From: Brasilonema sp. CT11
GTDB lineage: Bacteria; Cyanobacteriota; Cyanobacteriia; Cyanobacteriales; Nostocaceae
Length of the DNA: 32,315 nucleotides
NCBI RefSeq assembly: GCF_017982655.1
Contig: NZ_JABXYX010000089.1
Coordinates: 1-32,315, forward strand
Direction of reading: 5' to 3'
Shown here one piece after another: positions 4,491 to 28,513 of this stretch. Below the pieces are notes generated by a model. The model had not been told where the DNA came from. It made no database searches and saw nothing but the letters and a program-made list of their open reading frames with translations. Positions within the stretch are counted from its first letter, which is position 1. Each line of letters starts with the position of its first letter. Made by a program: the position numbers and the translations under genes.

Positions 4491-5627
4491 CTATAACAAA
4501 ACACTCAAGCTTTCCAGTCCATGTACTCTGATGTTGGCAATTGGTTTGAGAGGCTCAGTAGAGTCAACGCGAAGGTTAGGAAATTCTGAGAGTAAAGCTT
4601 TGATCCCAATCTTGGCTTCTAGTCGAGTTAAAGGTGCGCCCAAACAGAAATGAATTCCATTACCAAAGGCAAAATGTTTATTCGGTTCTCGATCAATGAT
4701 GAAGCGATCAGCATTCTCAAAGTGAAGTTCATCTCGATTGGCAGAAGCTAGCCACGGGTGCACAAGTTGCCCTTGAGGAATTGTCTGGTCTCCAATTTGG
4801 GTTTCTACTTGGGTGTATCGATTTAAAAAAGTAATCGGGGAATAATAACGCAGTACTTCCTCAATTGCACTCGGTAATAGAGACAAGTCGTGGAGTAGGC
4901 GTTGGTTTTCATCGGGATGCTCATGCAGACACCAAATCGTATTGGTAATCAAGTTAGTTGTAGTCTCATTCCCGGCTGTCAACAGTAGGATGCAAAAATC
5001 CACAACTTCCTGTCCGGTCAACTTTTCTCCCTCTTCATAAGCCGCAATTAAATCGCTGATCAAATCTTGGCCTGGATGCGATCGCCGCTCCTTGAGTAAT
5101 TGGCGGAAATAGTCAGCCATATTTTTTATCGCTGTTGGATCGGTAGCTAATACCCCGTCAGACCAGTGCTTGAAGTTTTCTCGGTCTTCAAGGGGTACAC
5201 CGAGAATTTCTCCAATCACGATGATCGGCAGAGGTGAGGAGAAAGCTTGGATTAAATCGACCTGTTTGTGTTGCTTCATTTGATCCAGCAACTCGTGAGT
5301 CAGTTCGGTAATCCGAGGTGCTAGTGCTTCGACTCGATTGGGAGTAAACACCTTTTGTACGAGAGTGCGTAGTGACTGATGTTTAGGCGGATCGGTGTGG
5401 ATTAAATCCTGAGTAAAATCTTCTCGACCAAGGGGTTTCGGCGATTTAGATGAAAAGGTTTTCCATTGGCTTGATACTCGTTCCACATCGTCATAGTGAA
5501 ACACCATCCAAGCTTGCCACTCTTTGTCATAGAAAACCGGCGCTTCCTGACGCATTTTAGCCAACCAGGAATAAGGATTGAGCAGGAATTGTGGATCGGT
5601 CGGTAGAAATTGTAAATCGTTAGTCAT
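4491..5627 (-). CDS. Cytochrome P450, bacterial class I type
   Basis: This 378-residue soluble P450 has all core motifs: I-helix oxygen-activation AGNETTT (residues 218-224), K-helix ExxR as EEVLR (E257, R260), and the heme loop FGNGIHFCLG (321-330) with Cys328 as thiolate ligand. Lack of a membrane anchor and the length suggest a CYP107/CYP109-like monooxygenase that takes electrons from a ferredoxin. No ferredoxin or reductase gene is nearby. The start ATG follows a good AAGGAG site. The gene lies 261 bases downstream of a tetR gene on the same strand. It may belong to the operon read from the promoter near 6850, or have its own promoter in that gap. Substrate unknown. Confidence 0.93.
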   Translation of the reverse strand: MTNDLQFLPTDPQFLLNPYSWLAKMRQEAPVFYDKEWQAWMVFHYDDVERVSSQWKTFSSKSPKPLGREDFTQDLIHTDPPKHQSLRTLVQKVFTPNRVEALAPRITELTHELLDQMKQHKQVDLIQAFSSPLPIIVIGEILGVPLEDRENFKHWSDGVLATDPTAIKNMADYFRQLLKERRSHPGQDLISDLIAAYEEGEKLTGQEVVDFCILLLTAGNETTTNLITNTIWCLHEHPDENQRLLHDLSLLPSAIEEVLRYYSPITFLNRYTQVETQIGDQTIPQGQLVHPWLASANRDELHFENADRFIIDREPNKHFAFGNGIHFCLGAPLTRLEAKIGIKALLSEFPNLRVDSTEPLKPIANIRVHGLESLSVLL

Positions 5628-13711: not shown

Positions 13712-14374
13712 CTACCGAGTTGGTATTAAGGTTATCTGTATCGAACCATCGCCTATTTTTGCAACAGAGCTACTTTCACCTTCTAAGATAAGTTCTTCAC
13801 CATAGGCAGTCTTCTTGTTAAGAATGGCAGCAATTTCTTGACAGCAAGCTTGTAGTCGTTGAGCTTCTGCAGCAGTCACATTTGTGGCTATCTGGTTAAT
13901 TAATTCGCTTGAACCTGCTTTGTGTGAATCTGTCTGCCAAAGTGGGATACTCTTGCTTTGATTTGTCCTTCTCCATAGTTGCGGGGTTGTGTTATGGAGC
14001 CGGAGAAACTGGCGGCTGAAATGGCGTCTATCAAAATAGCCTACTGCTTCAGCAATCCGCTCTACTGACTGCTCAGTTTCAACAAGCAAACGGCGAGCCT
14101 CTGCCATCCGACGCTCGATAATCCAATTGAGCACGGTCTTTCCAGTCTCTCGCCGTACAAGGTCAGTCAGGTATGCAGGAGAGCGATCGACTGCCTCAGC
14201 TACCTCCCGAAGACTAATGTATTGTTTATAATTATTTTCAATAAACTGAAAGACACTGTTCAGTAGGGGTTGGGACTGAAGCAATAACTTCTCAAACCTT
14301 GACACTATTGACGTGTCAATATCTATGTTAACGTTATAGGAGTTGATGTCACTAAATAAGTAATTGGAGTCCAT
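13712..14374 (-). CDS. AraC/XylS-family transcriptional regulator
   Basis: The protein has 220 residues from the ATG at 14374-14372, chosen because GAGGG lies 9 bases upstream; an upstream ATG at 14428 would add 18 residues with no support. An AraC-type double helix-turn-helix fills roughly residues 38-140: ISLREVAEAVDRSPAYLTDLVRRETGKT, then RMAEARRLLVETEQSVERIAEAVGYFDRRHFSRQF. The DNA-binding domain sits in the N-terminal half, which is unusual, followed by a roughly 75-residue C-terminal region ending in a beta-rich tail. It lies beside the ThDP/KAS III/SDR locus and shares strand with the NTF2-like gene, so it is the likely local regulator. Ligand unknown. Confidence 0.9.
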   Translation of the reverse strand: MDSNYLFSDINSYNVNIDIDTSIVSRFEKLLLQSQPLLNSVFQFIENNYKQYISLREVAEAVDRSPAYLTDLVRRETGKTVLNWIIERRMAEARRLLVETEQSVERIAEAVGYFDRRHFSRQFLRLHNTTPQLWRRTNQSKSIPLWQTDSHKAGSSELINQIATNVTAAEAQRLQACCQEIAAILNKKTAYGEELILEGESSSVAKIGDGSIQITLIPTR

Positions 14375-14481
14375 AACTTTACCCTCATTCATTTGCTTAA
14401 ATAGACTGCACTCTCCTATCAGATGCACCTGAGTTTGAGTAGAACGCAGACATTTTTGAGATCGAACAATTCTAAATTCTC

Positions 14482-14633
14482 TTTTTGCTCTAGCTTCATC
14501 AATTGCGGTTTTCAGTTTTTCCTCTGTTCCCTATAATTGTGGTTGTAAAAGTTTAGGTTTTTGCTCTAGCTTCATCAATTGCGGTTTTCAGTTTTTCCTC
14601 TGTTCCCTATAATTGTGGTTGTAAAAGTTTAGG
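14482..14633. repeat. Perfect 76-bp tandem duplication
   Basis: Bases 14482-14557 and 14558-14633 are identical 76-bp units (each starting TTTTTGCTCTAGCTTCATCA and ending GTTTAGG). The unit is not a multiple of three, so it is unlikely to have been coding in both copies. It fills most of the gap upstream of the AraC-family gene, so its leader or promoter has been duplicated. Perfect identity suggests a recent event, or a collapsed/duplicated assembly segment. Confidence 0.95.
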
Positions 14634-14674
14634 GTGAATGTTGTTCCTTAGAAAATAGCTATATTTGCTTTCTA

Positions 14675-15241
14675 TTAACGCCTGATCCAATGCAGCAACT
14701 CATCGGAAGCATAAACATCGCGAAAAAAATTAAGTTGCTCGGATTTAAAGTAGCATGCACCTCTGTGCCCACGTCGAAGAAAGGTTTGGTTTCCCTTGGC
14801 GATTATTTCCTTTGTTACATCGTCAGTACAATTCCACTCACTGTAAACAACTTCACCATTGAACATAACAATTGGCCAAGCCATTGTTACGCCAGGTTGA
14901 GCGAGGATTGCCCACCAATGGACTTCTCTATTTACCGCTGCGGTTTTGCTATAAAAAGGTCCGTTAGCACAGAAATAGACAAGACTATTGGCATACTCAC
15001 CAGCTAAAAGATCACCCCGTCCTTGTCGCAGCGCTTCACAGTGGCTTGGCCACCATTCTCTGTTTTCCTGTTCTATTTGCGCTAAGCTATATTCTGAAGT
15101 TATTTCCGGCAGTTTTTGTTCATATAGAGAAATATATTTTTCCCCGTTGCTCAGCAGTCCTACTCTTAGTTCATCGGAAATTAGCCTTGGCTTAGAATAA
15201 TCTGCAGATAGATTATTGTAGTAGTTGGTTCGCTTCGTCAT
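14675..15241 (-). CDS. NTF2/SnoaL-like fold protein, function unknown
   Basis: The 188-residue protein has helix-rich N-terminal sequence, then WWPSHCEALRQGRGDLLAGEY followed by LVYFCANGPF, HWWAILAQPGVTMAWPIVMF, GEVVYSEWNC and RRGHRGACYF. The order (helix, strand, then four antiparallel strands ending in a WxRRGHRG turn) is that of NTF2-like/SnoaL cone-shaped folds, used as cyclases, isomerases, hydrolases or pure binding pockets. Family assignment is by fold pattern only. Start ATG has AGAGG upstream. It is transcribed away from the ThDP/KAS III/SDR genes and toward the AraC gene, so it may be an accessory enzyme of that locus. Confidence 0.55.
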   Translation of the reverse strand: MTKRTNYYNNLSADYSKPRLISDELRVGLLSNGEKYISLYEQKLPEITSEYSLAQIEQENREWWPSHCEALRQGRGDLLAGEYANSLVYFCANGPFYSKTAAVNREVHWWAILAQPGVTMAWPIVMFNGEVVYSEWNCTDDVTKEIIAKGNQTFLRRGHRGACYFKSEQLNFFRDVYASDELLHWIRR

Positions 15242-16058
15242 CTTGAGCCTCTACCAAAGTCTTAGCAAACAGAATGTTGTAGTGCTGTCATAGCACTCCA
15301 TTAAGCTTGAATCGCCACAAGCTCCGCTCGATATCCGTAACGGGTGAGATGTTATGAATCGCGGGCGGTGACAAGCCTGTTTCCAAATAAAACCAGTTGT
15401 TAGACTAAGGAGTGAGTTTTCGCCCATCTCCGAGGATACATCAGTAAGGACAGGCAACATTTCTAAGAAATTTTCAATTTTTCCCAACAGATGCTATGAT
15501 CAGATATACGAGAAAACATAACTAGTAATTACAAAACAAATTAAACTTCTCATAGTTGTGATATTCATGCTGAAAAACTTAGGGAAGAAAGATATTGTTG
15601 TCCCAAACGTGGATATAAAGCATACGAAACTAATGAGAAAGTCCCCGTGCATTAGCTGGGGTAAAGAGCGCGGCAACAGAGTAGACAGCACACAGAGCAG
15701 ATCCTTGTCCACGTTGGTTTAGCACAATTTTATGTTTATAAATAAGCTTTCAGCAAGTTAAGATAGAAAACTTAAGGAAAAAAGTTTAAGTTTTTTTGTT
15801 GTATGTTACGTAAAGTTCCAATTGAAAAGATTTTCAGCCAATAGCAAATTTCGATCTGGGGTTGGCTAACTTTGATAAATTTATCTCGATGCAAAGGGTT
15901 TTAGCGCTCGAACAAAGTTCCACCCCCTTTGAGAATTTGCAGGCGAAAAATAGCTATAAGCCCTACGTCAATTAGCGATGCATAGTCTGTTTGCACTGAC
16001 TAAGTGGACTACTACGTCAAAGTTTTCAGCATTTGAGTAAAATGTCAACATACAAAAT

Positions 16059-16077
16059 ACTTAACTTTATGTTAAGT
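16059..16077. promoter_or_regulatory. Perfect inverted repeat ACTTAAC-N5-GTTAAGT
   Basis: Seven-base arms with a five-base spacer lie 223 bases before the ThDP gene start. The symmetry suits a dimeric regulator, but no bound protein is known. Confidence 0.4.
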
Positions 16078-16227
16078 TACTTATCGTGAGTTGTTTAACT
16101 TTTGTGTAGCAAGCAAACTCAATAACGTCAGGCTTCACTCTATCAACTAAATTCAGCAAGGAAAGCAATTTAAGCTTAACTGACCTTCAGATTTTTAGAT
16201 AACGCTTAGTAGATATAATCAACATTT

Positions 16228-16251
16228 TGTCAATATGTCAATGTGTCAATG
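16228..16251. promoter_or_regulatory. Three tandem TGTCAAT(A/G) octamers
   Basis: TGTCAATA, TGTCAATG and TGTCAATG follow without gaps, 48 bases upstream of the ThDP gene start. A related TGTCAACA lies at 16043-16050. Head-to-tail iterons just upstream of an operon are typical binding arrays for activators (AraC proteins bind direct repeats), making the adjacent AraC-family regulator a candidate. The 8-bp spacing is short for this family, so the link is tentative. Confidence 0.45.
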
Positions 16252-16299
16252 ATAACAGATTAGACTGTTTGTTAACCTCTGTGCATCTACTTAAGCTTT

Positions 16300-18183
16300 A
16301 TGAGCACTAAATCTTTTTCCAAAAAAAAGAAAACGGCTAAAAAGTTACACATAGATACCAATAGCGAATTTAGCCCAATTCAGACTAGGCATATTAATCA
16401 GACATCCGGATGTAGCATTTTTTCTCCATCTGAGTCTTCTTTGATCCCCTCACCTATTGCAGATATCCAGAGCAACCCACAGTTGGACATCGTGTCTCTC
16501 GAAGCAAGTCAGCAACTTGCACCTGTCTCAGTTGCTGAGACGGTGGTCAAGATGTTGGAAGATATGGGAGTGCAATATGCGTTTGGTGTTTCGGGGGGTG
16601 CGATCGCTCCCCTTTGGCACACACTGCAACATAGTTCCATACGCGTATTGCACTTTCGTCATGAAGCGGGAGCAGCTTTTGCAGCCGCCGAGGCGTACTT
16701 TGCAAGTGCTCGTCCCGTCGTCGTGTTTACTACAGCAGGTCCGGGGATCACGAACGCGTTAACTGGGTTATTTGCTGCACGCTGGGAGGGTGCAAAGGTG
16801 ATTTTGCTGTCGCCTTCCACCTCGACATCGCAGCGCGGGCGGTGGGCATTTCAAGAAACCAGCGCCTATACAATGTCCAACACAGGGATTTTTACCTCCG
16901 AACCACTGTTCGATTACGCAACCACTCTCGAATGCAGTGATGAACTCCCAGAGGTCTATCGACGGCTGGCAAAAGGCTTAGCCCAACCCGGTGGATTTGT
17001 AGCACATTTGAGTATCCCTACCAACATCCAAACAAATTTAGTTAAGACATCTTTGCCACAAGTGACCCTCTGTGTTGCTGCTGCAACCGCAAGTGAGGAA
17101 ACCATCTCAAAATGTGCGCGGCTGTTGTCGGAAGGATCATTTGCGATTTGGGTCGGGTTTGGTGCACGGGGCGCACCGGCGGAGATTCGCGAGCTTGCTG
17201 AGAGGACGGGAGCGGCGGTGATGTGTTCGCCGCGCGGCAAAGGTATTTTTCCGGAGGATCATCCTCAGTTTGTAGGCGTCACGGGCTTTGCTGGGCATGA
17301 GTCGGTTTTGAAATATATGCAAGAGTATTGTCCTTTGCGGACGCTGGTACTCGGAACACGCCTTGGTGAATTCACCTCATTCTGGAACCCTGCGATGATC
17401 CCCTCGCGGGGTTTTGTGCATGTTGACATCGACTCCGAGGTGCCAGGGATAGCGTATCCATCTGCTGAGACGTTTGCCATTCAGTCAGATGTGGGAATGT
17501 TTGTCAAGGCGCTGTTAAACCACTTCCCAAAGCGTAAAAGTTGGTTCAAAATCCAGTCTTTGCCGAGACCCTACCGTATGGTAATCAATCCCAGCGCGGC
17601 TGGTCCGGTGCGACCCGAGGTACTTATGAATATGATTCAACGGATAATCGTTGAAGGCAGTGATGCGTTGGTGATGACTGAGGCAGGTAACTCCTTTGCT
17701 TGGGGAAATCATATGCTGCGATTTACCAAACCGGGTCGTTACCGTGTCAGTACCGGATTTGGAGCAATGGGTCATGCTGTCACGGGCGTCGTGGGTGCTG
17801 CTCTAGCTCGTAATGGTAAGGCTGTTGCCATCGTTGGAGATGGTGCCATGCTCATGAACAGCGAGATTAGCACTGCCGTGCAACACCAGATTCCTGCTGT
17901 TTGGATCGTACTAAACGACTCGCATTACAACATGTGCAACCAAGGAATGGCAATGTTGGGGTTTGAGGGTATAAACGCGAAAATCTCACAGACTAATTTC
18001 GTCAAGATTGCTCAAGGAATGGGATCTGATGGTATCCGCGTTGAAAAAGAATCTGACATTCAGGCAGCGCTAGAGAAAGCACTCGTCTCTACTGGTCCGT
18101 TTGTTGTTGATGTAGTCATCGACCCCACACGATCTGCACCGATTGGAAGTCGTATCAGCAACTTAAGTTTGCAACAGCAATAG
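16300..18183 (+). CDS. ThDP-dependent acetolactate-synthase-like enzyme (candidate acyloin synthase)
   Basis: The 627-residue protein has the three-domain layout of the acetolactate synthase/pyruvate decarboxylase superfamily from about residue 75. The catalytic Glu122 lies in RHEAGAAFAAAEAYF, and TTAGPGITNALTG follows. A central domain spans about 255-410. The C-terminal cofactor domain has the GDGAMLMNSEIS motif (GDG 513-515) closing at LND (538-540), which binds Mg-ThDP. Such enzymes decarboxylate 2-oxo acids and join the aldehyde unit to an acceptor. The first 70 residues are a Lys/Ser-rich extension (FSKKKKTAKKL) outside the fold. It is the first gene of a three-gene unit with a KAS III-like and an SDR gene. 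It recalls ScyA (scytonemin) and other acyloin synthases, but no other scytonemin gene is present. Substrates unknown. Confidence 0.85.
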   Translation: MSTKSFSKKKKTAKKLHIDTNSEFSPIQTRHINQTSGCSIFSPSESSLIPSPIADIQSNPQLDIVSLEASQQLAPVSVAETVVKMLEDMGVQYAFGVSGGAIAPLWHTLQHSSIRVLHFRHEAGAAFAAAEAYFASARPVVVFTTAGPGITNALTGLFAARWEGAKVILLSPSTSTSQRGRWAFQETSAYTMSNTGIFTSEPLFDYATTLECSDELPEVYRRLAKGLAQPGGFVAHLSIPTNIQTNLVKTSLPQVTLCVAAATASEETISKCARLLSEGSFAIWVGFGARGAPAEIRELAERTGAAVMCSPRGKGIFPEDHPQFVGVTGFAGHESVLKYMQEYCPLRTLVLGTRLGEFTSFWNPAMIPSRGFVHVDIDSEVPGIAYPSAETFAIQSDVGMFVKALLNHFPKRKSWFKIQSLPRPYRMVINPSAAGPVRPEVLMNMIQRIIVEGSDALVMTEAGNSFAWGNHMLRFTKPGRYRVSTGFGAMGHAVTGVVGAALARNGKAVAIVGDGAMLMNSEISTAVQHQIPAVWIVLNDSHYNMCNQGMAMLGFEGINAKISQTNFVKIAQGMGSDGIRVEKESDIQAALEKALVSTGPFVVDVVIDPTRSAPIGSRISNLSLQQQ

Positions 18184-18204
18184 AATTGATAGGAGATTTG
18201 TATT

Positions 18205-19344
18205 ATGCATTACTCAGTAGGCATTCGCTCGCTTGCATTGAGCTTTCCTAACACCATACGTACAAACGATTACTTCCGCAATAAATATCCAGAGTTAATT
18301 GCTCAGTCCGAGCAAAGAAGTTTAGCAAAGCTGTTTTCACTGGCTGACTCCGCTCCCAGAAATGAGTTTGACTTGGAGATGATGCCTTATTTGTCAGACC
18401 CCTTTCGCGGCACCGTTGAACGGCGAGTACTTGCCCCTGGTGAGACGTCACTAACGCTTGAGTATAAAGCCGCCAAAGATGCTCTTGACGCAGCTAAACT
18501 TTCTCCCGATGATGTCGATTTGATGATAGTCGCCTCACTCGTTGGCGAGCATATCATACCTGGCAATGCTGTTTTCCTCGCCGAGCAACTCGGTTTACAA
18601 TGTGCCGCTTGGAATCTTGATTCAATGTGCTCAGGTGCGATGGTTGCACTCCAAACTGCCAGTACACTCGTTCGAGCAGGAGAGTACCGCAATGTGCTGG
18701 TGGTAAATTCTTGTACGTTCTCTCGCTTTCTTGATGAAAGAGATACCCTCTCGTGGGTAGCTGGTGATGCTGCCGGAGCCTTTATAGTTAGCCCACTTCA
18801 AAGCAACCAGGGAATTCTCGGCAGCAAAACCGTTCATACCGCAGAAACTTGTGGTGCCTTTTACACTCAACTGGCACAGGATTCCCAGGGTGATCCACGA
18901 TTCTTTCTAAGGTCAGCAAAGGGAGCTAATCGAATAATCAGCACTACATTTGCTAATTATGTTCGTACTTGCTGCAACGGTGCTGCCGCTGCTGCCAACG
19001 TCACACTTGACCAGATTGACTTCTTTGTTTTGAATGGAACAACTGCCTGGTTTGCTAACTTTTGCGCTCGTGTACTAGGCATTGACTTAGAGCGTACAAT
19101 CAACCTCTACCCTAAGTATGGGAACATTGGACCAATAGCTGTCGTTAGTAATTTGTATCATGCAGCACAATTGGGTAAAATCAAGGAAAATGATTTAGTT
19201 CTCGTCTATTCCCTTGGTACACCAGCGAACGCTACTGCAAGTGTAATGCGCTGGGGTGATGTAGCTCTAGGACCTGTTCGAGTTCATGAACCCAATATTG
19301 CAGTCAAAAGAGCCAAAGACAAGAGCCTTGTTATGGCTATCTAA
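18205..19344 (+). CDS. KAS III-like thiolase-fold protein with altered active site
   Basis: The 379-residue protein has the ketoacyl-ACP synthase III fold: SLTLEYKAAKDALDAAKLSPDDVD, then the nucleophile Cys142 in LDSMCSGAMVALQTA, AGDAAGAFIV, and the late GNIGPIA loop with Asn307. The usual catalytic His (PHQAN in FabH) is replaced by VLNGTTAW (residues 275-282), so the Cys-His-Asn triad is incomplete. This suggests acyl transfer or a condensation that does not need His-assisted decarboxylation, as in some KAS III-like acyltransferases; this is inference. Start has AGGAG 10 bases upstream and lies 21 bases after the ThDP stop, so they are co-transcribed. Confidence 0.85.
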   Translation: MHYSVGIRSLALSFPNTIRTNDYFRNKYPELIAQSEQRSLAKLFSLADSAPRNEFDLEMMPYLSDPFRGTVERRVLAPGETSLTLEYKAAKDALDAAKLSPDDVDLMIVASLVGEHIIPGNAVFLAEQLGLQCAAWNLDSMCSGAMVALQTASTLVRAGEYRNVLVVNSCTFSRFLDERDTLSWVAGDAAGAFIVSPLQSNQGILGSKTVHTAETCGAFYTQLAQDSQGDPRFFLRSAKGANRIISTTFANYVRTCCNGAAAAANVTLDQIDFFVLNGTTAWFANFCARVLGIDLERTINLYPKYGNIGPIAVVSNLYHAAQLGKIKENDLVLVYSLGTPANATASVMRWGDVALGPVRVHEPNIAVKRAKDKSLVMAI

Positions 19345-19387
19345 CAATATTGAATACCAATTTTCTTGACTATTGCAACAAATAAAA

Positions 19388-19431
19388 CCTCCTGTAGCCC
19401 CTCCGCAAGTGGGGGGGACGCCGACAGGAGG
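19388..19431 (+). repeat. GC-rich stem-loop between the KAS III-like and SDR genes
   Basis: CCTCCTGT (19388-19395) pairs with ACAGGAGG (19424-19431), and inside it CCCCTCC faces a run of seven G. The sequence resembles the CCCCTCCGCAAGTGGGGG type of dispersed cyanobacterial repeat. Lying in a 204-base gap, it may lower read-through or protect the upstream mRNA. A TATTTT run follows but is too weak to call a firm terminator. Confidence 0.6.
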
Positions 19432-19548
19432 GATGTATTTTCCTTGTTAAACAAGAGTTTTAAGTACTTGTTACGCCAGAAAGTTTCAAAGTCCCAATCA
19501 CTACTAACTAGTATAAAACAAAGCTACTCAGACGAAAGGAGCACACTC

Positions 19549-20298
19549 ATGATCGGTCAATTTTATGGAAAAGTCGCGCTGGTTACAGGAGCTTCATCAG
19601 GCATTGGTCGGGCTACTGCGATCGCGTTTGCACGTGCTGGAGCAAAGGTCGTGGTTGCTAGTCGTCGCATCACGAATGGAGAAGAAACCGTGCACCGCAT
19701 ACATGAGCTTGGAGGAGAGGCTATTTTTGTCAAGACCGATGTGTCAAAGGCTGCTGAAGTAGAGGTACTAGTCAACAAGACTATTGATTACTATGATCGT
19801 CTGGACTATGCTTGCAACAACGCTGGTATTCCGGCATCTAGTCCACTCATTGATATCTCCGAAGAGGACTGGGATCGCGTGATCAACGTTAATCTCAAAG
19901 GAACGTGGCTCTGTCTCAAGTATGAAATCAAGGCAATGCTCAAACAAGGTGGCGGTGCAATTGTGAACGTGGCTTCCATTGGTGGTGTCATCGGCTGTGA
20001 AGGGCTGACCAGTTACTGTGCTAGTAAAGGTGGGGTTATTGCCTTAACTCGAGCAGCGGCACTAGAATATGCCCAATCCGGTATCCGGATCAATGCTGTG
20101 AGTCCTGGTTGCGTCCAGACCGATATACTGGCTAATGTCTCAAAAGACATACTTGCTCGAATCAAGGCAGCGCATCCGGTAGGACGTATTGGCAAACCAG
20201 AGGAGGTTGCAGAAGCTCTACTATGGTTGTGTTCCGATGCAGCTTCCTTCGTGATGGGGCATAATATGATCATTGATGGGGCATATACCGCACAGTAA
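19549..20298 (+). CDS. SDR-family oxidoreductase (classical, FabG-like)
   Basis: The 249-residue protein has the NAD(P)-binding TGASSGIG (residues 13-20), structural NNAG (90-93), and catalytic Ser143, Tyr156 and Lys160 (SYCASK). Arg39-Arg40 after strand 2 (ASRR) suggest NADP(H). It likely reduces a keto group or oxidises an alcohol made by the preceding ThDP and KAS III-like enzymes. The start ATG 19549 is chosen for GAAAGGAG 8 bases upstream. A longer frame from 19366 would translate the GC-rich hairpin and has no family support. The gene closes the operon and meets the NB-ARC/WD40 gene tail to tail 78 bases on. Confidence 0.92.
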   Translation: MIGQFYGKVALVTGASSGIGRATAIAFARAGAKVVVASRRITNGEETVHRIHELGGEAIFVKTDVSKAAEVEVLVNKTIDYYDRLDYACNNAGIPASSPLIDISEEDWDRVINVNLKGTWLCLKYEIKAMLKQGGGAIVNVASIGGVIGCEGLTSYCASKGGVIALTRAAALEYAQSGIRINAVSPGCVQTDILANVSKDILARIKAAHPVGRIGKPEEVAEALLWLCSDAASFVMGHNMIIDGAYTAQ

Positions 20299-20376: not shown

Positions 20377-23300
20377 TCACTGGTTCTGTTTATCCTCAAT
20401 CGCTCCTAAATATTTCATAGCAAATTTTTCAGCTTCAGTTAAGCCAATTACCCCACTAATATTCATATTTTCGTAGGGTCTAGGGCTTCTCAAAGTTTTC
20501 AAGCACTCACCAGTTTTTACATCCCAAAGCTTGATCGTCTCATCTTCACTACTACTGGCTAGGATCTTACCTTGAGGACTAAAGGCTAGTGACCAAACTA
20601 ACTTAGAATGTCCCAATAAGGTGCTTACGCATCTGTTTGTACTGATATCCCATAGCTTGACCGTTTGGTCACCACTACCACTTGCCAATATGCCACCATC
20701 TAAAAAGATGAGTCCGTATACGCAATTACTATGTCCACGCAAAGTTCCAATACATTGACCTGTACTGACATCCCAGAGTTTTATCGTTTGGTCACCACTG
20801 CCACTTGCTACAATATTACCATTAGGACTAAAGGTGAGTGACCATATCCAGTCAGTATGAGCATACACAGTCTGAAGGCAACGACCAGTGCTGACATCCC
20901 AAAACTTTAGTGTTTGATCATTACTGGCACTGACTAGCATATGACTATCGGGGCTAAAAGCGACTACTGTTACCCAATTAGTGTGCTCTTGTAGGGTCTT
21001 GAGGCAAAGACCTGTCTTAACATCCCATAGCTTTACTGTTTGGTCCTGACTGCCACTAGCAAGTATAGTACCTTGGCAGCTGAAGGCAACTGACATAATC
21101 CAATAGCTATGTTCGCGCAAAGTTTTGAGACATTGACCAGTCCTAATATCCCAAAGCTTCACTGTTTGATCCTCACTGGCACTGGCAAGTATATTACCTT
21201 GAGGACTCAAAGCAACTGATGTGACCCGATTACTGTGTCCCCGCAAAGTCTTGAGGCATTCGCTAGTGCTGACATCCCACAGCCTCACTGTTTGGTCACC
21301 ACTACCACTTGCTAGCATAGTACCTTGAGGATTGAAAGTGACTGACCATATCCCATTACAGTAACCTTGCAAGATTTTCAGGCATTGACCTGTAGTGACA
21401 TCCCACAGCCTTACCGTTTGGTCATCACCGCCACTCGCTAGTATCGTGCTTTTCGGTCTAAAGGCGACTGACCACACCCTGCTAGTATGCCCCTGTAGAG
21501 TACTTAGGCATTGACCTGTAGTGACATCCCACAACCTTACTGTTTGGTCCTCACTCCCACTCGCAAGCTTTTGCCCATCACAACTAAAAGCAACTGAATT
21601 TACGCAGTCAGTATGACCATGCAGAGTAGTCAGGCATTGACCGATATTGACATCCCATATTTTCACCGTTGTGTCATAACAACCACTAGCTAAAGTATGA
21701 CCATCTGGGCTGAAGGCAAGTGAGCGACTCCCAGTATTATTATCCTGCAAAGTTTTGAGGCAAAGACCTGTGCTGGCATCCCACAACTTCACTGTTTGGT
21801 CATCACTGGCACTGGCAACTATAGTACCTTGTGGGCTGAAGGTGACTGATGTAACCCGATGATTATGTCCCTGCAAAGTTTTGAGACATTCATAAGTACT
21901 AACATCCCACAGCTTCACCGTTTGATCCTCGCTACTACTTGCAATCAGGTTACCATTGAGACTGAACGCGACTGACCAGATGCTACCGCTATGACCTTGC
22001 AAACAAGCAAGGCAAAGACCTGTCTTAGTATCCCACAGCTTCACTATTGGGTCATCACTGCCACTAGCAAGAACATCACCATCGGGACTAAAAGTAATCG
22101 GCCAAACAAAACCCGTATGTGCCTTGAAGCTGAGCAGTTGTTTCCCGTTCGCAACCTGATACAGGCGGATCTCACCATTAGTATCCCCCGTAGCCAAGAC
22201 TTTTCCATCAGGACTAAATGCCAGTGAATGAATACCGCCGAGGGTTTCAGTAAAAATACATTTATCTAGATTGGCGTGAGCAAAATTTGCATTGTGCAAT
22301 TTCACATTTCGCAAATCTGCTTGCCAAACCGTCAAATGAGAAAAATCATAGCCACTTAGATCAATTTCCAGATGACAAAGCAGATTAAGAATATTTCCAG
22401 CCGTATAACTTTGTTCTAACGGAGATTCCTCTCGCAGCGTTGCTAAAATTTTATTTAACTGATTTTCAAGATTTTTTTTGCTTCTCAAGACAGTGAGCAG
22501 CCCATCTATTACTGGTTGGAGAATAAGGCGAATTTGAATATCCCTAACATAGTCTTTCGCCGTCGCCTTCATCAAAGCATGACACCTGAACAAATCGATA
22601 TTCTGAGTAACAATCTCTTCACAAACTTGCTCTATTAATCGATTCGTCACATACTCCATAACGACTGGTTGTAGTGTGAAGGTTGCTTCGCTTTTTTCTA
22701 CTACTAGCGTAGGCGTATAGCTAAGCTCTTCCCGCAGGATAGCCTTCTCGATTAGCGATCGCCTTACCAAAGACTCCAAAGCCTCCAGTAATTTCTGTGG
22801 TGGGATCGGTGATACTATATCTTCTCGTAACTCTGATAGCGAAACTGGCTCACGATTAATTGCCAGCCAGTACATTATGTCCTTTTCTAAATTTGACAAG
22901 CGCGAAAACTGCTGGTCTAATAGTTCGTGAATGTCACCAAAAACAACACCGTCTTGTTTGAGAAATTCAGAAATTTTACCATTAAACACATCTTGTATCG
23001 TCGTCGCCACTATCTTCAAGGCTAAGGCGTTACCTGCATAGCGCTCAACCACTGTTCTCAATTCTGACTCTGAACCAGAGAAACCCTTAATTTCAAAGAT
23101 TTTTTGCCCATGTACCGCTTCTAAACCACTTAATTGTAATGAGCGAACGGGCAGCCCTTGTCCTTCGAGTGACGCCACGTCTTTCGGTTTTTCCCGAGAA
23201 GTTAGCAGCAAGCAGCTTCTGTGGGAAACTTCTCCTAAGCGTCTGATCAACTGACCATAATCTTCGTAGCCTTCTCGATACTTTCCAGCAATAACCCCAC

Positions 23301-23991
23301 TTTGCAGAATGGTCTCAGCATTATCTAGTATAATCAGACAGCCGTGTTCTCGTAAAGAATCAATCAGTCGCGAGATTCTTTCATCTACGCTGTTTGGTAA
23401 ATCAGCTTCTAAAACCTGGGGATCACAGAAAAATTGAATCAAGTTTGCCAAAAGCTCGAAAAGTGGCGGGGCATTGTAGAGCGATCGCCAGATAACGTAC
23501 TCAAACCCCTCCTGAATTTGTTGAGATAGCTTGACAGCAACAGAAGTTTTACCAATTCCCCCCATTCCCAACAGAACCACCACTTGACAACGATCCTTGA
23601 TGATCCATTCCTCTAGCAAAGCTAGTTCTGCTGTGCGTCCATAGAAAATTGAGACACAAATTGCCTCTCCTAAATCAACGCGCTTGAGGACTTTCAAGTC
23701 TTCCTGCTTCACTAAATCCGAGTCTGGCTTTGTATAGTCGCTTTGCTGCAGTTCTAAATTAAACGCCATAAACAAACGAACAAGCGTTTGTTTGTCAACC
23801 CCTATTTCGCGAGTCAGCACTTTCCTAAAAGTGACAGGAGTTATTCCAGCCTGTTCACTTAATTCTTCCAGGGTACACTTACAACCAGAATTTTCCTGAA
23901 ATTCCCACTCAACTTTGGCATTTTGAAGCTTTTGCCAGCCTTCACGAGTCAGTATAAGCCCACGGTTGCGTTTTTGCTTTTTCTGTTTCAT
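20377..23991 (-). CDS. HTH-NB-ARC (STAND) ATPase with 14 WD40 repeats, copy 1
   Basis: This 1204-residue protein has four parts. Residues about 9-80 form an HTH-like domain ([21 protein letters not shown]), similar to the N-terminal HTH of cyanobacterial VMAP/NB-ARC proteins. Then comes a STAND ATPase with Walker [10 protein letters not shown] (142-150), Walker [10 protein letters not shown] (218-226), sensor TSREKP (264-269) and a GNALAL motif (320-325), where the usual proline of GxP is replaced by Ala. A short pentapeptide-like segment follows ([18 protein letters not shown]). From about residue 585 there are exactly 14 WD40 repeats, enough for two seven-bladed propellers. STAND proteins act as ligand-triggered switches; a signalling or defence role is inferred. 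Paralogue of 24863-28513. Confidence 0.92.
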
Positions 23992-24388: not shown

Positions 24389-24892
24389 ATGAGTAGTCTA
24401 GTTGCCGCTGTGAAGAATAACGACCTTGAATTAGTCAAAAAATTAATTGAAAATGGTGTAGACGTTAACCAAATAGACAGCAGTGGAAATAGCCTCTTGA
24501 TTGTCAGTTCTGCTAACGGTCAATCTGAAATGGTGAAGCTACTTCTTGACTCTGGTGCTGATATTCACGCGGTAGACTCAAGTATGAAAGCCACTGCACT
24601 CCACGCTGCTGCCTATTTGAGGCATCCAGAGGTTATGGAAATTCTAATTTCGTATGGAATTAATATAGATGCTCAGGGTCCTTACAACGGATACACTGCC
24701 TTACACGATGCGGTTTGGCAAAACAATGTTGAAGGAGTTAGGCTCCTGGTAAATGCAGGTGCGCGCTTAGACATCAAAGGCAAGAAAGGAAATACCCCGT
24801 TAGATCTTGCCAAAAAAAGTGGGCACAAAGAAATTGTTAGCATCCTTTCTGGAGCGATACCTCTAGTTAGTCATAGCTCCCAAAGCTTTTAG
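24389..24892 (+). CDS. Ankyrin-repeat protein
   Basis: The 167-residue protein is built of about four ankyrin repeats: SSLVAAVKNNDLELVKKLIENG, then NSLLIVSSANGQSEMVKLLL, TALHAAAYLRHPEVMEILI, TALHDAVWQNNVEGVRLLV and TPLDLAKKSGHKEIVSIL. These are protein-binding scaffolds without catalysis. There is no signal peptide or membrane segment. Its last ten codons overlap the 3' end of the convergent STAND gene (24863-24892), so the C-terminal IPLVSHSSQSF may be a non-native tail acquired when the genes were brought together. It follows the RHH gene by 99 bases and may be co-transcribed with it. Confidence 0.88.
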   Translation: MSSLVAAVKNNDLELVKKLIENGVDVNQIDSSGNSLLIVSSANGQSEMVKLLLDSGADIHAVDSSMKATALHAAAYLRHPEVMEILISYGINIDAQGPYNGYTALHDAVWQNNVEGVRLLVNAGARLDIKGKKGNTPLDLAKKSGHKEIVSILSGAIPLVSHSSQSF

Positions 24893-27800
24893 AGAAGCAA
24901 TAGTTGCTTGTGTTAAACCTATAACACCAGTAATGTTCATTCCCTCTAGTGGTCTTTCGTTTCTGAAAGTTTTTAAACACTCACCGGTCAAAACATCCCA
25001 TAACTTAACTGTCCCATCTTCACTGCCACTAAGCAAAGTTTTACCATCCGGACAAAAAACAACTGACCTTACCCAGTGGGTATGACCCTGTAAAGTTTTA
25101 AGACATTCACCGGAGTTAATATCCCACAATTTTACCATTTGGTCTACGCTACCACTGGCGAGGATATGACCTTGAGGACTAAAGGCAACTGACAACACCC
25201 AACTCGTGTGTCCTGAGAAAGTTTTGAGACATTCGCCTGTGCCAACATCCCAGAACTTCACTGTTTTATCTTTACTGCCACTGGCTAAAATCCTACCTTG
25301 AGGACTGAAATCAACTGACAATACCCAACCGCTATGTCCCAACAAGTTTTTAAGAGTTTGACCTGTGCTGACATCCCATAACCTCACGGTTTGGTCATCA
25401 CTGCCACTTGCCAAGATATTACCAATCTCCTGAGCCTGCGGCACGGCTGCGCCTAACGCAGACGCTATGCCTACGGCACGGCTGCGCCTATCGCTAACGG
25501 GACTGAAGGCAACAGACCATACCCCATGACTATGTTCCAAGGTTCTCAAGACTTCACCAGTGCTGACATTCCATAACCTCACAGTTTGGTCATCACTGCC
25601 ACTTGCCAGGATATTGCCTTCAGGAGCAAAGGCTACTGCTTTTACCCAACCAGTATGTCCTTGCAAAATTTTATAGCATTGGTTAGTGCTAGTATCCCAT
25701 AACCTGACTTCCTGGTCGTAACTGCCAGTGGCCAAGATATTACCTTCAGGACTGAAGGCAACGGTTCGTACTCGGTTAGCGTGTCCCAGCAAAGTTTTGT
25801 TGCACTGAGCGGTGCTGACATCCCAACAGCGTACAGTTTGGTCATCACTGCTGCTGACAAAGGTTTTGCCACTAGGAGCAAAGGCAACAGACATCACCCC
25901 GTTACTATATCCCTGCAAGATTCTCAAGGTTTGACCAGTGGTAACATCCCAAAGCCTGACAGTTTGGTCATCACTTCCACTGGCAAGGATATTACCTTCA
26001 GGACTCAAAGCAAGTGACCAAATTAAACCAGTATGTCCTTGCAAGGTCATAAGGCATTCACCAGTGGTATGATCCCAAAGCTTGACAGTTTGGTCATCAC
26101 TGCCGCTAGCTAGCATTTTACCTTTAGGAGCAAAGGTGACTGACCTTACTCGGTTACTATGTCCCTGCAAAGTTCTAAGGTATTCACCAGTACTGGCATC
26201 CCAAAGCTTGACAGTTTGGTCATCACTGCCAGTAGCTAGAATTTTGCCATCCGGACTGAAAGTAACTGACCAGATCCAACCAGTATGTCCCTGCAAAGTT
26301 ATTTTACATTCACCCGTTGTGAAATTCCATAGCTTTAAAGTTTTGTCACTACTAGCAGTGGCTAGGATCTTACCTTGAGGACTAAAAACAACTGACAATA
26401 CCCGACCAGTATGTCCCTGCAAAATTTTATGGCACTGACTGCTGCGAAGATCCCACAAACTCACCGTTTGGTCATCGCTGCCACAAGCTAAGATATGACC
26501 TTTAGAACTGAAGGCAACGGTTTGTACGCGCTTAGGGTGTCCCCTGAAAGTTTTCAGACATTCACCGGTGCTTGTGTCCCACAACTTTACATTCTGATCC
26601 GCACCAGAACTACTGATGGTATTGCCATCTGGACTGAAGGCGATCGCTCGAACCCAACTAATGTGTCCTTGACAAGTCAAAAGTTCTTCACTATCAGTAA
26701 AGTCTTGCCATAAGCAAATCTTACCATTAGCGTCACTCGTTGCTAAAACTTTTCCGTTGGGACTAAATGCTACCGCAGAAACTCTACTGAAGTTTTTCGT
26801 AAAAACAGACTTGGATAAATTAGCGTTTTGGAAATTGACTTGAGGTAAATTTACACCTCTTAGGTCAGCTTGCCAAATACTCATGTTAGAAAAATCATAA
26901 CCCCTGAAATCAGTTTTTAGCTGACTAAGCATATTGATAATATTTCCGCCTGTATATCCTCGTTCCTGTGAAGATTCTTTTTGCAGCAATACTTTGATTT
27001 GAACCAGTTGATGTTCAAGTCTTTTTTGGCTTTTAAAGATAGTGAGCAATTCATCAATAAGTGGTTTGAGAATAAAACGTATTTGAGCAACTCTTACATA
27101 GTCTTTGGATTGAGCTTTGCTCAAAGCATGATGTCTAAAAAGCACAATTTGTTGAGTGACTATCTCTTCACATATTTGCTTTATTAATTTGCTAGTCACA
27201 TACTCCATTAATACAGGTTCTATTGTGAAGAGTGGAGTGCTTTTCTCTACTTGTGTAGGTGTAGCCTTGTCGATGAGACTTCTCCGCACCAGAGACTCCA
27301 AAGCCTCTAGTAATCTCTGTGGTGTTCCTATTGATATAATATCTTCTCGCAATTGGGAGAGGGTCATTGGCTCACGATTAATACAGAACCAGTACATCAC
27401 CTCATGCTCCTTATCCGACAAGCGCTCAAACTGCTGGTCTAAAAGAGCACTAATATCGCCAAAAACTGTGATTTCTTGGTTTAAAAACTCAGAAATATTA
27501 CCATTAAAAACATCTTGAATTGTTGTTGCAACTATCTTCAAAGCTAATGGATTGCCACAATAGCGCTCAAATAGTGCTTTCTTTTTAGAATCTTTTCCAG
27601 ATATACCTTTGTCGAGCAAAATTCTTTTTCCTTCCTCCTCACCGAGACCTCTCAGGTGTAATGAGCGAACAGGTAATGTTTCTCCTTCGAGTAACGCCAC
27701 GTCTTTCGGTTTTTCCCGAGAAGTCAGCACTAAGCAGCTTTGATGAATTGTTTGTCCCACCCGTTTTATAAGTTGACCATAATCCGAATACTCTTGTTGA

Positions 27801-28513
27801 TAGCTTCCAGCAATCGCGCCACTTTGCAGAATGGTTTGTGCGTTATCGAGTATAATCAGACAGTGGTATTGTCGCAAATATGAAATCAGTTGGGACAATC
27901 TGCCGTCTACGCTTTTTGGTAAGTCAGCTTCACAAATCTGGGCGTCACAGAAAAATTGAATTAAGTTAGCCAAAAGCTCGAAAAGTGGAGGGGCATTGTA
28001 GAGCGATCGCCAAACAACATACTCAAATTGCTCCTGAATTTCATGGACTAACTTAGCAGCAACAGAGGTTTTACCAATACCCCCCATTCCCAACAGTGCG
28101 ACAACTCGGCATTGCTCCGTCAAGAGCCATTGCTCCAGCATAGCCAATTCTGTTGTACGTCCACAAAAACCTGACACACAAACAGCTTCGTCCCAATCAA
28201 TCCGCTTGAGAGTCTTCAAGCCTTGAAGCTTCGCCGAATTGGGATTGCTCTTTGAATAGTCGCTTTTCTTCAATTCTAAATCAAATGCCATGAAGAAACG
28301 AACAAGCGTTTGTTTGTCAACCCCTTCTTGGCGAGACAGTACTTTTGCAACTGTATTCGGAGTTAATTCAGCGCGTTCACTTATTTCTTCCACGGTGTAC
28401 TTAATACCAGATTTTTCGCGAAATTCCCATTCGAGTTTTCCTTTCTGAAGTTTTTGCCAGCCTTGGAGAGTGAGTATAACGCCACGACTTCGTTTTGAAT
28501 TGTGCTGATTCAT
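24863..28513 (-). CDS. HTH-NB-ARC (STAND) ATPase with 14 WD40 repeats, copy 2
   Basis: The 1216-residue paralogue of 20377-23991 has the same layout and residue spacing: HTH (about 9-80), Walker [10 protein letters not shown] (142-150), [15 protein letters not shown], and a canonical GNPLAL motif with the proline kept. A pentapeptide-like segment (YDFSNMSIWQADLRGVNL) precedes 14 WD40 repeats. The C-terminal tails are also alike (MNITGVIGLT versus [10 protein letters not shown]). Blade 11 carries a 25-residue in-frame insertion, FSP-VSDRRSRAVGIAS to QAQEI-GNILASG, from a dispersed DNA repeat. High WD40 similarity within and between copies favours gene conversion. The ligand sensed by the propellers and the output of the HTH domain are unknown. 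Confidence 0.92.
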   Translation of the reverse strand: MNQHNSKRSRGVILTLQGWQKLQKGKLEWEFREKSGIKYTVEEISERAELTPNTVAKVLSRQEGVDKQTLVRFFMAFDLELKKSDYSKSNPNSAKLQGLKTLKRIDWDEAVCVSGFCGRTTELAMLEQWLLTEQCRVVALLGMGGIGKTSVAAKLVHEIQEQFEYVVWRSLYNAPPLFELLANLIQFFCDAQICEADLPKSVDGRLSQLISYLRQYHCLIILDNAQTILQSGAIAGSYQQEYSDYGQLIKRVGQTIHQSCLVLTSREKPKDVALLEGETLPVRSLHLRGLGEEEGKRILLDKGISGKDSKKKALFERYCGNPLALKIVATTIQDVFNGNISEFLNQEITVFGDISALLDQQFERLSDKEHEVMYWFCINREPMTLSQLREDIISIGTPQRLLEALESLVRRSLIDKATPTQVEKSTPLFTIEPVLMEYVTSKLIKQICEEIVTQQIVLFRHHALSKAQSKDYVRVAQIRFILKPLIDELLTIFKSQKRLEHQLVQIKVLLQKESSQERGYTGGNIINMLSQLKTDFRGYDFSNMSIWQADLRGVNLPQVNFQNANLSKSVFTKNFSRVSAVAFSPNGKVLATSDANGKICLWQDFTDSEELLTCQGHISWVRAIAFSPDGNTISSSGADQNVKLWDTSTGECLKTFRGHPKRVQTVAFSSKGHILACGSDDQTVSLWDLRSSQCHKILQGHTGRVLSVVFSPQGKILATASSDKTLKLWNFTTGECKITLQGHTGWIWSVTFSPDGKILATGSDDQTVKLWDASTGEYLRTLQGHSNRVRSVTFAPKGKMLASGSDDQTVKLWDHTTGECLMTLQGHTGLIWSLALSPEGNILASGSDDQTVRLWDVTTGQTLRILQGYSNGVMSVAFAPSGKTFVSSSDDQTVRCWDVSTAQCNKTLLGHANRVRTVAFSPEGNILATGSYDQEVRLWDTSTNQCYKILQGHTGWVKAVAFAPEGNILASGSDDQTVRLWNVSTGEVLRTLEHSHGVWSVAFSPVSDRRSRAVGIASALGAAVPQAQEIGNILASGSDDQTVRLWDVSTGQTLKNLLGHSGWVLSVDFSPQGRILASGSKDKTVKFWDVGTGECLKTFSGHTSWVLSVAFSPQGHILASGSVDQMVKLWDINSGECLKTLQGHTHWVRSVVFCPDGKTLLSGSEDGTVKLWDVLTGECLKTFRNERPLEGMNITGVIGLTQATIASLKALGAMTN
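25424..25498. repeat. Dispersed cyanobacterial repeat inserted in frame in a WD40 blade
   Basis: These 75 bases are GC-rich and contain two copies of GGCACGGCTGCGCCTA around GACGCTATGCCTAC. Read on the minus strand they encode VSDRRSRAVGIAS and onward between the FSP and GNILASGSDDQT parts of WD40 repeat 11. All other repeats of both paralogues lack this block. The insertion is a multiple of three and creates no stop codon. Confidence 0.88.

Follow-up and report, generated by a model that had tools for sequence, protein, structure and literature searches.

A candidate furanolide-type enzyme pair without aromatic-acyl supply genes, beside an NB-ARC-WD40 gene, in Brasilonema sp. CT11

What could be made by a locus that combines a thiamine diphosphate (ThDP)-dependent carboligase, a β-ketoacyl synthase (KAS) III-like enzyme and a short-chain dehydrogenase/reductase (SDR)? 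Such a locus lies on contig NZ_JABXYX010000089.1 of Brasilonema sp. CT11, analysed here over 32,315 nucleotides (the window) and belonging to a genome of 8.79 Mb that is 96% complete. An initial annotation had described a compact small-molecule locus of five genes, this trio together with an AraC-family regulator and an NTF2/SnoaL-like protein, and could name no gene set to match it. All five open reading frames (ORFs) were present where it had placed them, and family assignments agree with its view that the locus is of a small-molecule type, with a ThDP enzyme of the acyloin type next to the KAS III-like enzyme and the SDR. The gene set is however not without a name: judged by sequence, the ThDP and KAS proteins are a CybE/CybF-type furanolide core pair.

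The CybE/ScyA-related ThDP-dependent carboligase (627 aa, positions 16300-18183, plus strand) has three TPP Pfam domains. It scored 1062.9 bits against NF035927, the "ScyA-related TPP-binding enzyme" family, passing the cut-off of 1000, and failed both the ScyA equivalog NF035923 (956.5 bits, cut-off 1020) and the acetolactate synthase family TIGR00118 (225 bits, cut-off 538). An ordinary acetolactate synthase, the identity that the initial annotation had wanted checked, is ruled out by a score so far under the cut-off. ScyA of scytonemin synthesis belongs to the same ThDP family and is likewise ruled out, both by the score under its cut-off and by the partner, which is a KAS and not ScyB/ScyC. 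The true scyABC genes of this genome are on a separate contig (C225), and its own ScyA is 61% identical to the window enzyme. Glu122, the GDG motif at 513-515 and Asn539 are intact and were invariant in all 74 ThDP sequences taken. The best PDB match was BbmA (8x3x), and E. coli acetolactate synthase I ranked above CsmA, which came fourth; we take BbmA and CsmA to be the two CybE homologues named 'CsmA and BpmA' in PMC12395478.

CybE (ThDP) and CybF (a KAS-like furanolide synthase) build cyanobacterin-type furanolides, with coumaroyl-CoA supplied by the lyase CybB and the CoA ligase CybC (PMC13288894, PMC12395478). A nostoclide-like cluster has been credited to Nostoc 210A (PMC5987646), where the genes stand in the row 3-deoxy-D-arabino-heptulosonate 7-phosphate (DAHP) synthase, lyase, cytochrome P450, ligase, ThDP, KAS (locus L157). 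The ThDP protein of this strain also passes NF035927 and is 65% identical to that of the window, which thus holds the E/F pair.

The KAS III-like, CybF-type enzyme (379 aa, 18205-19344, plus strand; PF08545/PF08541, the ACP_syn_III N and C domains) is predicted by AlphaFold2 to adopt a FabH/PqsBC-type fold (pLDDT 84.3). It is 55% identical to the KAS of Nostoc 210A and 60% identical to that of L089, both from loci with a lyase and a ligase. Among the 177 KAS relatives that a scan of named genomes returned, the best 80, a sample biased toward close relatives, were placed with the window protein in a tree of 81. With catalytic positions assigned against the FabH of the window genome, Cys142 was kept in 79 of the 81 and Asn307 in all; at the position of the catalytic His of FabH the window has Asn277, and Asn stands there in 73 proteins, His in 4, Tyr in 3 and Thr in 1. 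The window KAS fell into a 9-row group (support 98/92) within a 55-row group (99/95), which together with L085 makes a 56-row clade (88/77, under the starred support level), called the clade below. Every KAS with a lyase or a LIG506-type ligase at its locus fell outside it. The furanolide side of the tree is represented by KAS from loci with both lyase and ligase. With the KAS of these furanolide-type loci the window enzyme shares the family tree, the Cys, the Asn and the replacement of the FabH His. At E 1e-60, KAS relatives occurred in 19 of 386 genomes of a phylum sample, all 19 from the order of the window; within that order, at E 1e-40, they occurred in 74 of 388 genomes, other neighbourhood types included.

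The two KAS without the catalytic Cys are those of Brasilonema angustatum (L105, 9968-11137), with Trp, and of L132, with Thr; both come from metagenome assemblies, so sequencing error is possible. Another kind of neighbourhood was seen in L094, L103, L113 and L148, with an aromatic lyase, an AMP-binding ligase, sometimes a ThDP or SDR gene, and a giant protein of about 1800 aa, which in L094, the one scanned, is a kinase/AAA/GAF/histidine-kinase protein. KAS relatives of about 490-550 aa (L058-L059, L065-L070, L073-L075, L077), one of them within a 1585-aa ORF, are possibly a separate polyketide-like family; many adjoin an ORF of 120-150 aa and large ORFs of 1150-1700 aa.

Neighbours were counted at loci with sufficient flank, so that the denominators vary by gene. 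A ThDP gene was adjacent to the KAS gene in 51 of the 53 clade loci with enough upstream sequence and in 20 of 22 outside, and in the clade this association exceeds chance. An aromatic lyase stood beside the KAS gene in none of 46 testable clade loci and in all 19 others. A LIG506-type ligase was equally missing (0/46 against 17/19, the remaining two, L094 and L113, having a different AMP-binding protein); clade loci L102 and L107 had a distant AMP-binding relative, 23-31% identical, within 8 genes. Of the four furanolide core genes B, C, E and F, the window has the E and F types only. The cyb, mac and ncl clusters (cyanobacterin, maculalactone and nostoclide-type) have the same adjacent pair of ScyA-related ThDP and KAS III-like genes, with the same catalytic residues. 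The window differs from them in having no ammonia-lyase, DAHP synthase or related CoA ligase alongside, and also in its separate KAS clade, the SDR or GDSL gene downstream and a convergent NB-ARC-WD40 gene. Its P450-like ORF (4491-5627, 378 aa), 10.7 kb off, has two matched stretches, is shorter than usual and adjoins a TetR gene. The accessible part of the CybE/CybF literature, which leaves out subscription papers including the 2022 cyanobacterin paper, did not describe a lyase-free clade, and we do not claim that none is in print. Searches for ScyA in combination with acyloins and a ketosynthase found no paper, and among the papers listed for BbmA none was relevant.

Could this be an ordinary furanolide locus that draws its cinnamoyl-type CoA from another source in the cell? 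Plesiocystis pacifica has only cybE/cybF homologues co-localised, and cinnamoyl-CoA has been proposed as its building block (PMC8777810); the Plesiocystis/Enhygromyxa loci (deoxyenhygrolides), likened here by their description, resemble the window in having the ThDP-KAS pair without the other cyb genes. In the 96%-complete window genome, however, PF00221 (aromatic ammonia-lyase) had no match. It was also absent from 8 of 9 genomes chosen, by neighbourhood, for lyase-free loci, whereas it was present in all 7 chosen for lyase-type loci; 5 of 14 control genomes were positive. The ninth lyase-free-locus genome (G383) had two matches elsewhere, one of them a full-length lyase about 350 kb away, which speaks for supply in trans, and another of the nine (G295) also has a larger KAS relative of another type (L074). 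The cluster CoA ligase had 83 matches in the window genome, the nearest just 34-36% identical. We regard supply in trans as quite improbable.

The third enzyme is a classical SDR reductase (249 aa, 19549-20298, plus strand; PF13561/PF00106; NF004818, 368 bits, cut-off 336) with S/Y/K motifs. Its long ORF opens at TTG 19366, and ATG 19549 has an AGGAG-type site upstream. Relatives in L096, L142 and L152 begin near this ATG, and L078 has an in-frame extension like that of the window; ATG 19549 is the likely start and TTG 19366 an unlikely one. Counted from this ATG, the gap of 204 bases between KAS and SDR agrees with the initial annotation, as does the gap of 21 bases between ThDP and KAS. An SDR of at least 60% identity followed at only 10 of the 51 clade loci, and a GDSL esterase was present at 30; outside the clade the counts were 2 and 0 of 21. 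Conservation of the trio in related genomes, which had been put forward as a check, was thus found for the ThDP-KAS pair; the full trio is a minority arrangement. A GDSL relic was sought in the 204-base gap and nothing above chance appeared. The GDSL esterase of clade locus L096 (5245-6243) has, by eye, a PEP-CTERM-like tail, which would suggest export.

All together, we lean towards the trio being a CybE/CybF-type unit that does without aromatic-acyl supply genes, and that would make a butenolide from an acyloin and an acyl unit other than cinnamoyl. On the analogy of CybE and CybF, from which every reaction, the acyl donor and the ring are taken, the ThDP enzyme would couple two 2-oxo acids to an α-hydroxy-β-keto acid of the acyloin type. 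The KAS III-like enzyme would then take an acyl group from a CoA or acyl-carrier-protein thioester onto Cys142 and move it to the acyloin oxygen; CO2 would be lost, and a second C-C bond would close a butenolide/furanone ring. Last, the SDR would reduce a carbonyl or a double bond of the product. Given that the search for an aromatic ammonia-lyase gave no match, primary metabolism would probably supply the acyl unit, in place of a cinnamoyl or coumaroyl one; with such a unit, ring closure would be aldol-like instead of following the Morita-Baylis-Hillman route of CybF. The predicted acyl unit would set this chemistry apart from the known furanolides, and the ring closure from xenocyloin-type chemistry. 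What the computation shows directly is to which families the proteins belong and in which clade the KAS falls, that the catalytic residues are intact, how the genes are ordered, that a lyase is missing and that the window is a mosaic (see below).

The xenocyloin locus combines a ThDP acyloin enzyme with KAS III-like acylating enzymes. The window has the same gene types, and the likeness is one of gene type alone. By this analogy the ThDP enzyme would make an acyloin that the KAS III-like enzyme only O-acylates, with no ring being formed, and the SDR would reduce the ketone. The missing lyase would fit, for without a cinnamoyl unit a Baylis-Hillman closure would be deprived of its usual enoyl substrate, and so would the GDSL esterase of 30 clade loci. 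On the other hand, the KAS falls into one family tree with those of the furanolide-type loci, a tree that holds no xenocyloin KAS, and we consider O-acylation alone rather doubtful.

Several points weigh against the butenolide synthesis that we favour. Authentic CybE and CybF (Tolypothrix PCC 9009) stood outside the comparisons, with Nostoc 210A as stand-in. The clade to which the window KAS belongs has distinct active-site surroundings, so that its chemistry may have shifted. As the SDR is found at 10 and the GDSL esterase at 30 of 51 clade loci, later steps differ. Acyl supply by another route would be compatible with the missing lyase, and the 83 ligase matches, distant as they are, count on the same side. 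Finally, a co-localised cybE/cybF pair without the rest has already been reported from myxobacteria (PMC8777810), although its authors propose a cinnamoyl-CoA building block whereas no lyase was found in the window genome.

A convergent gene for an NB-ARC-WD40 STAND protein (20377-23991, minus strand, 1204 aa; NB-ARC 6.7e-9, 14 WD40 stretches) comes next. Such a gene (at least 50% identity) followed in 40 of 51 clade loci against 1 of 21 elsewhere, and is a more constant partner than the SDR. Neither this gene nor the variability and mosaic make-up of the locus had been noticed in the initial annotation. A second NB-ARC-WD40 STAND gene (24863-28513, minus strand, 1216 aa) falls into one group with the second copies found in L078 and L152. 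The genome holds six close relatives without internal stops (counting the convergent gene; two in the window), plus one with a stop. In the tree, 45 locus neighbours formed a supported group (96) that excluded three of the four unlinked paralogues of this genome, the fourth, on contig C2, lying inside; genes located upstream of ThDP (L082, L083, L084, L150) fell outside. PADLOC matched only the WD40 region, to a repeat model, and Pfam recognised no cell-death domain in the protein. We count the convergent protein as part of the locus, with a probable role as sensor or regulator. A literature search for NB-ARC with WD40 beside cyanobacterial gene clusters found no paper. In fungi, the NLR self-recognition genes het-d/het-e are polymorphic and encode STAND NTPases whose WD40 sensor varies (PMC12222747); the likeness lies in STAND plus variable WD40, the cyanobacterial protein differs in being bacterial and beside biosynthetic genes, and the comparison is an analogy only. 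Variable WD40 positions were 3, 4, 5, 7 and 23 in our register. Their match to the fungal positions 10, 11, 12, 14 and 30 (PMC12222747) was set aside as evidence: the spacing fits, fungal 32 and 39 do not, and the pairing of the two registers is our own.

The window has a mosaic structure. At this site the named relatives closest to it are B. angustatum (L105) and an uncultured Scytonema (L078). Compared with L105, identity at 13.5-16.35 kb was 95-100% in 17 of 19 bins of 150 bp (89 and 93% in the others), and fell to 57-84% in KAS. Compared with L078, it was 50-84% left of 16.5 kb and 79-91% across the ThDP gene; in 100-bp bins it rose to 94-100% at 18.2-20.2 kb, and was 69-92% at 20.2-20.8 kb, 92-100% at 20.8-22.2 kb (the WD40 repeats) and 71-89% from 22.3 kb on. 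The first of these highly similar stretches, 18200-20150, is an exchanged one that covers KAS and most of the SDR (94-100% to L078 per 100-bp bin), in contrast to about 50-93% for ThDP and the left flank.

Silent divergence (pS) was measured in 18 other loci that share the flank gene P289 (15 Nostoc, 2 Desmonostoc and 1 unnamed Nostocales; n 13-18 by gene). Mean pS was 0.30 in the upstream gene, 0.27 in P289, 0.35 in the HAD gene, 0.42 and 0.57 in the N and C halves of ThDP, 0.60/0.57 in KAS, 0.49 in GDSL, 0.61 in the WD40 repeats, 0.35 in the STAND domain and 0.29 in the downstream gene. It thus about doubles from the flanks to the centre formed by KAS and the WD40 repeats, a profile indicating that the arms are more conserved and that the centre is made up of alleles or imports that differ deeply. 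In pS, exchange and a polymorphism kept over a long time look alike, and the values cover this site alone among Nostoc clusters. The ratio to amino acid-changing divergence (pN/pS) was 0.18-0.36 within the locus, pointing to purifying selection. This bears on whether the locus is decaying or redundant and varies under weak constraint, as could be suspected from accessory genes that come and go and from the catalytic Cys replaced in two KAS. Besides the pN/pS values, the Cys retained in the other 79 and the ThDP residues invariant in 74 of 74 argue to the contrary, and decay appears very improbable.

KAS distances correlated with those of the WD40 repeats (39 loci, r 0.66; 0 of 5000 permutations as high), and more so in the set of 18 from Nostoc and its near relatives (r 0.79), where neither correlated with the flank P289 (KAS r 0.04, repeats r 0.02). 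After thinning, r fell to 0.30 at more than 15% KAS distance (n 24) and to 0.17 at more than 20% (n 21), below the KAS-ThDP values of 0.43 and 0.37, and the intervening GDSL gene correlated equally (0.70 with KAS, 0.80 with the repeats, n 29). The weakening indicates that the correlation reflects recent joint transfer of neighbouring DNA, and deep co-evolution of synthase and receptor is unsupported. KAS strongly rejected the ThDP grouping (approximately unbiased test, p 2.6e-63) and ThDP did not reject that of KAS (p 0.146), in a test whose two groups were named after the trees had been seen and whose ThDP tree was a quick one. One speculative reading, which we hold to be unlikely, takes the locus for a system of chemical recognition that is polymorphic among filamentous cyanobacteria, much as in polymorphic self/non-self or pheromone loci: ThDP and KAS (with SDR or GDSL) would make a butenolide-like, strain-type-specific signal, the NB-ARC-WD40 protein would be its receptor, and variable propeller and synthase would be exchanged as one cassette between arms that are more conserved (the N half of ThDP and the STAND domain).

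On the other side of the trio are the AraC-family regulator (238 aa, 13712-14428, minus strand; PF12833, E 2.8e-21) and the protein labelled NTF2/SnoaL-like (188 aa, 14675-15241, minus strand), an optional neighbour with relatives in 69 of 388 genomes. The label could not be confirmed: the latter protein had no Pfam or NCBIfam match at E 0.001 (a single chance-level Pfam match, E 0.11), its profile matched two chance-level PDB chains only, and its AlphaFold2 model, from 17 sequences, reached a pLDDT of 41.5; in this low-confidence model the elements follow one another in an order that an NTF2-like fold could have. The whole is less compact than described, with 1058 bases between the NTF2-like and ThDP genes; compactness holds for the trio. 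The five-gene layout recurred in 2 of 80 other loci (L078, L152), and L105 shares it as far as KAS, near its contig end. Of the 81 loci, 4 have the AraC-NTF2 pair next to ThDP-KAS. Twenty of the matches to the NTF2-like protein were fetched; among the 19 other loci, 6 had an AraC gene (at least 60% identity, within 1.5 kb) and no ThDP gene there. As the pair also exists without the trio and is rare beside ThDP-KAS, we reject it as part of the core set, in which it had been included; where present, it may regulate the trio. In L173 and L181, which were scanned, a 510-517-aa EthD-domain protein ends in the NTF2-like domain; in L173 an EthD/carboxymuconolactone-decarboxylase protein follows it. 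The AraC-NTF2 gap contains an exact two-copy tandem repeat of 76 bases (14482-14633), of which blastn overlap suggests one copy in L105; each copy has a promoter-like match, at a chance-level count, and promoter and terminator scans of the region gave counts no higher than chance.

Elsewhere in the window, FkbM methyltransferase, GNAT, SWIM and SNF2 genes lie upstream; downstream, an ankyrin gene stands between the two NB-ARC-WD40 genes, followed by a group II intron maturase (29588-31375; RVT_1, GIIM, HNH). A Pfam scan of the 22 window ORFs found no polyketide synthase, nonribosomal peptide synthetase or acyl-carrier domain, as the initial annotation had also reported.

Algicides and antibiotics are found among the furanolides, and biocatalysis makes use of their core enzymes; the occurrence of a lyase-free branch across many Nostoc-like genera suggests a chemistry that reaches beyond cinnamoyl-derived furanolides. 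The most interesting part of the locus is its variable centre adjoining an NLR-like protein. The frequent NB-ARC-WD40 partner and the cassette-like variability raise the question whether bacterial NLR-like proteins may sense small molecules made by neighbouring genes.

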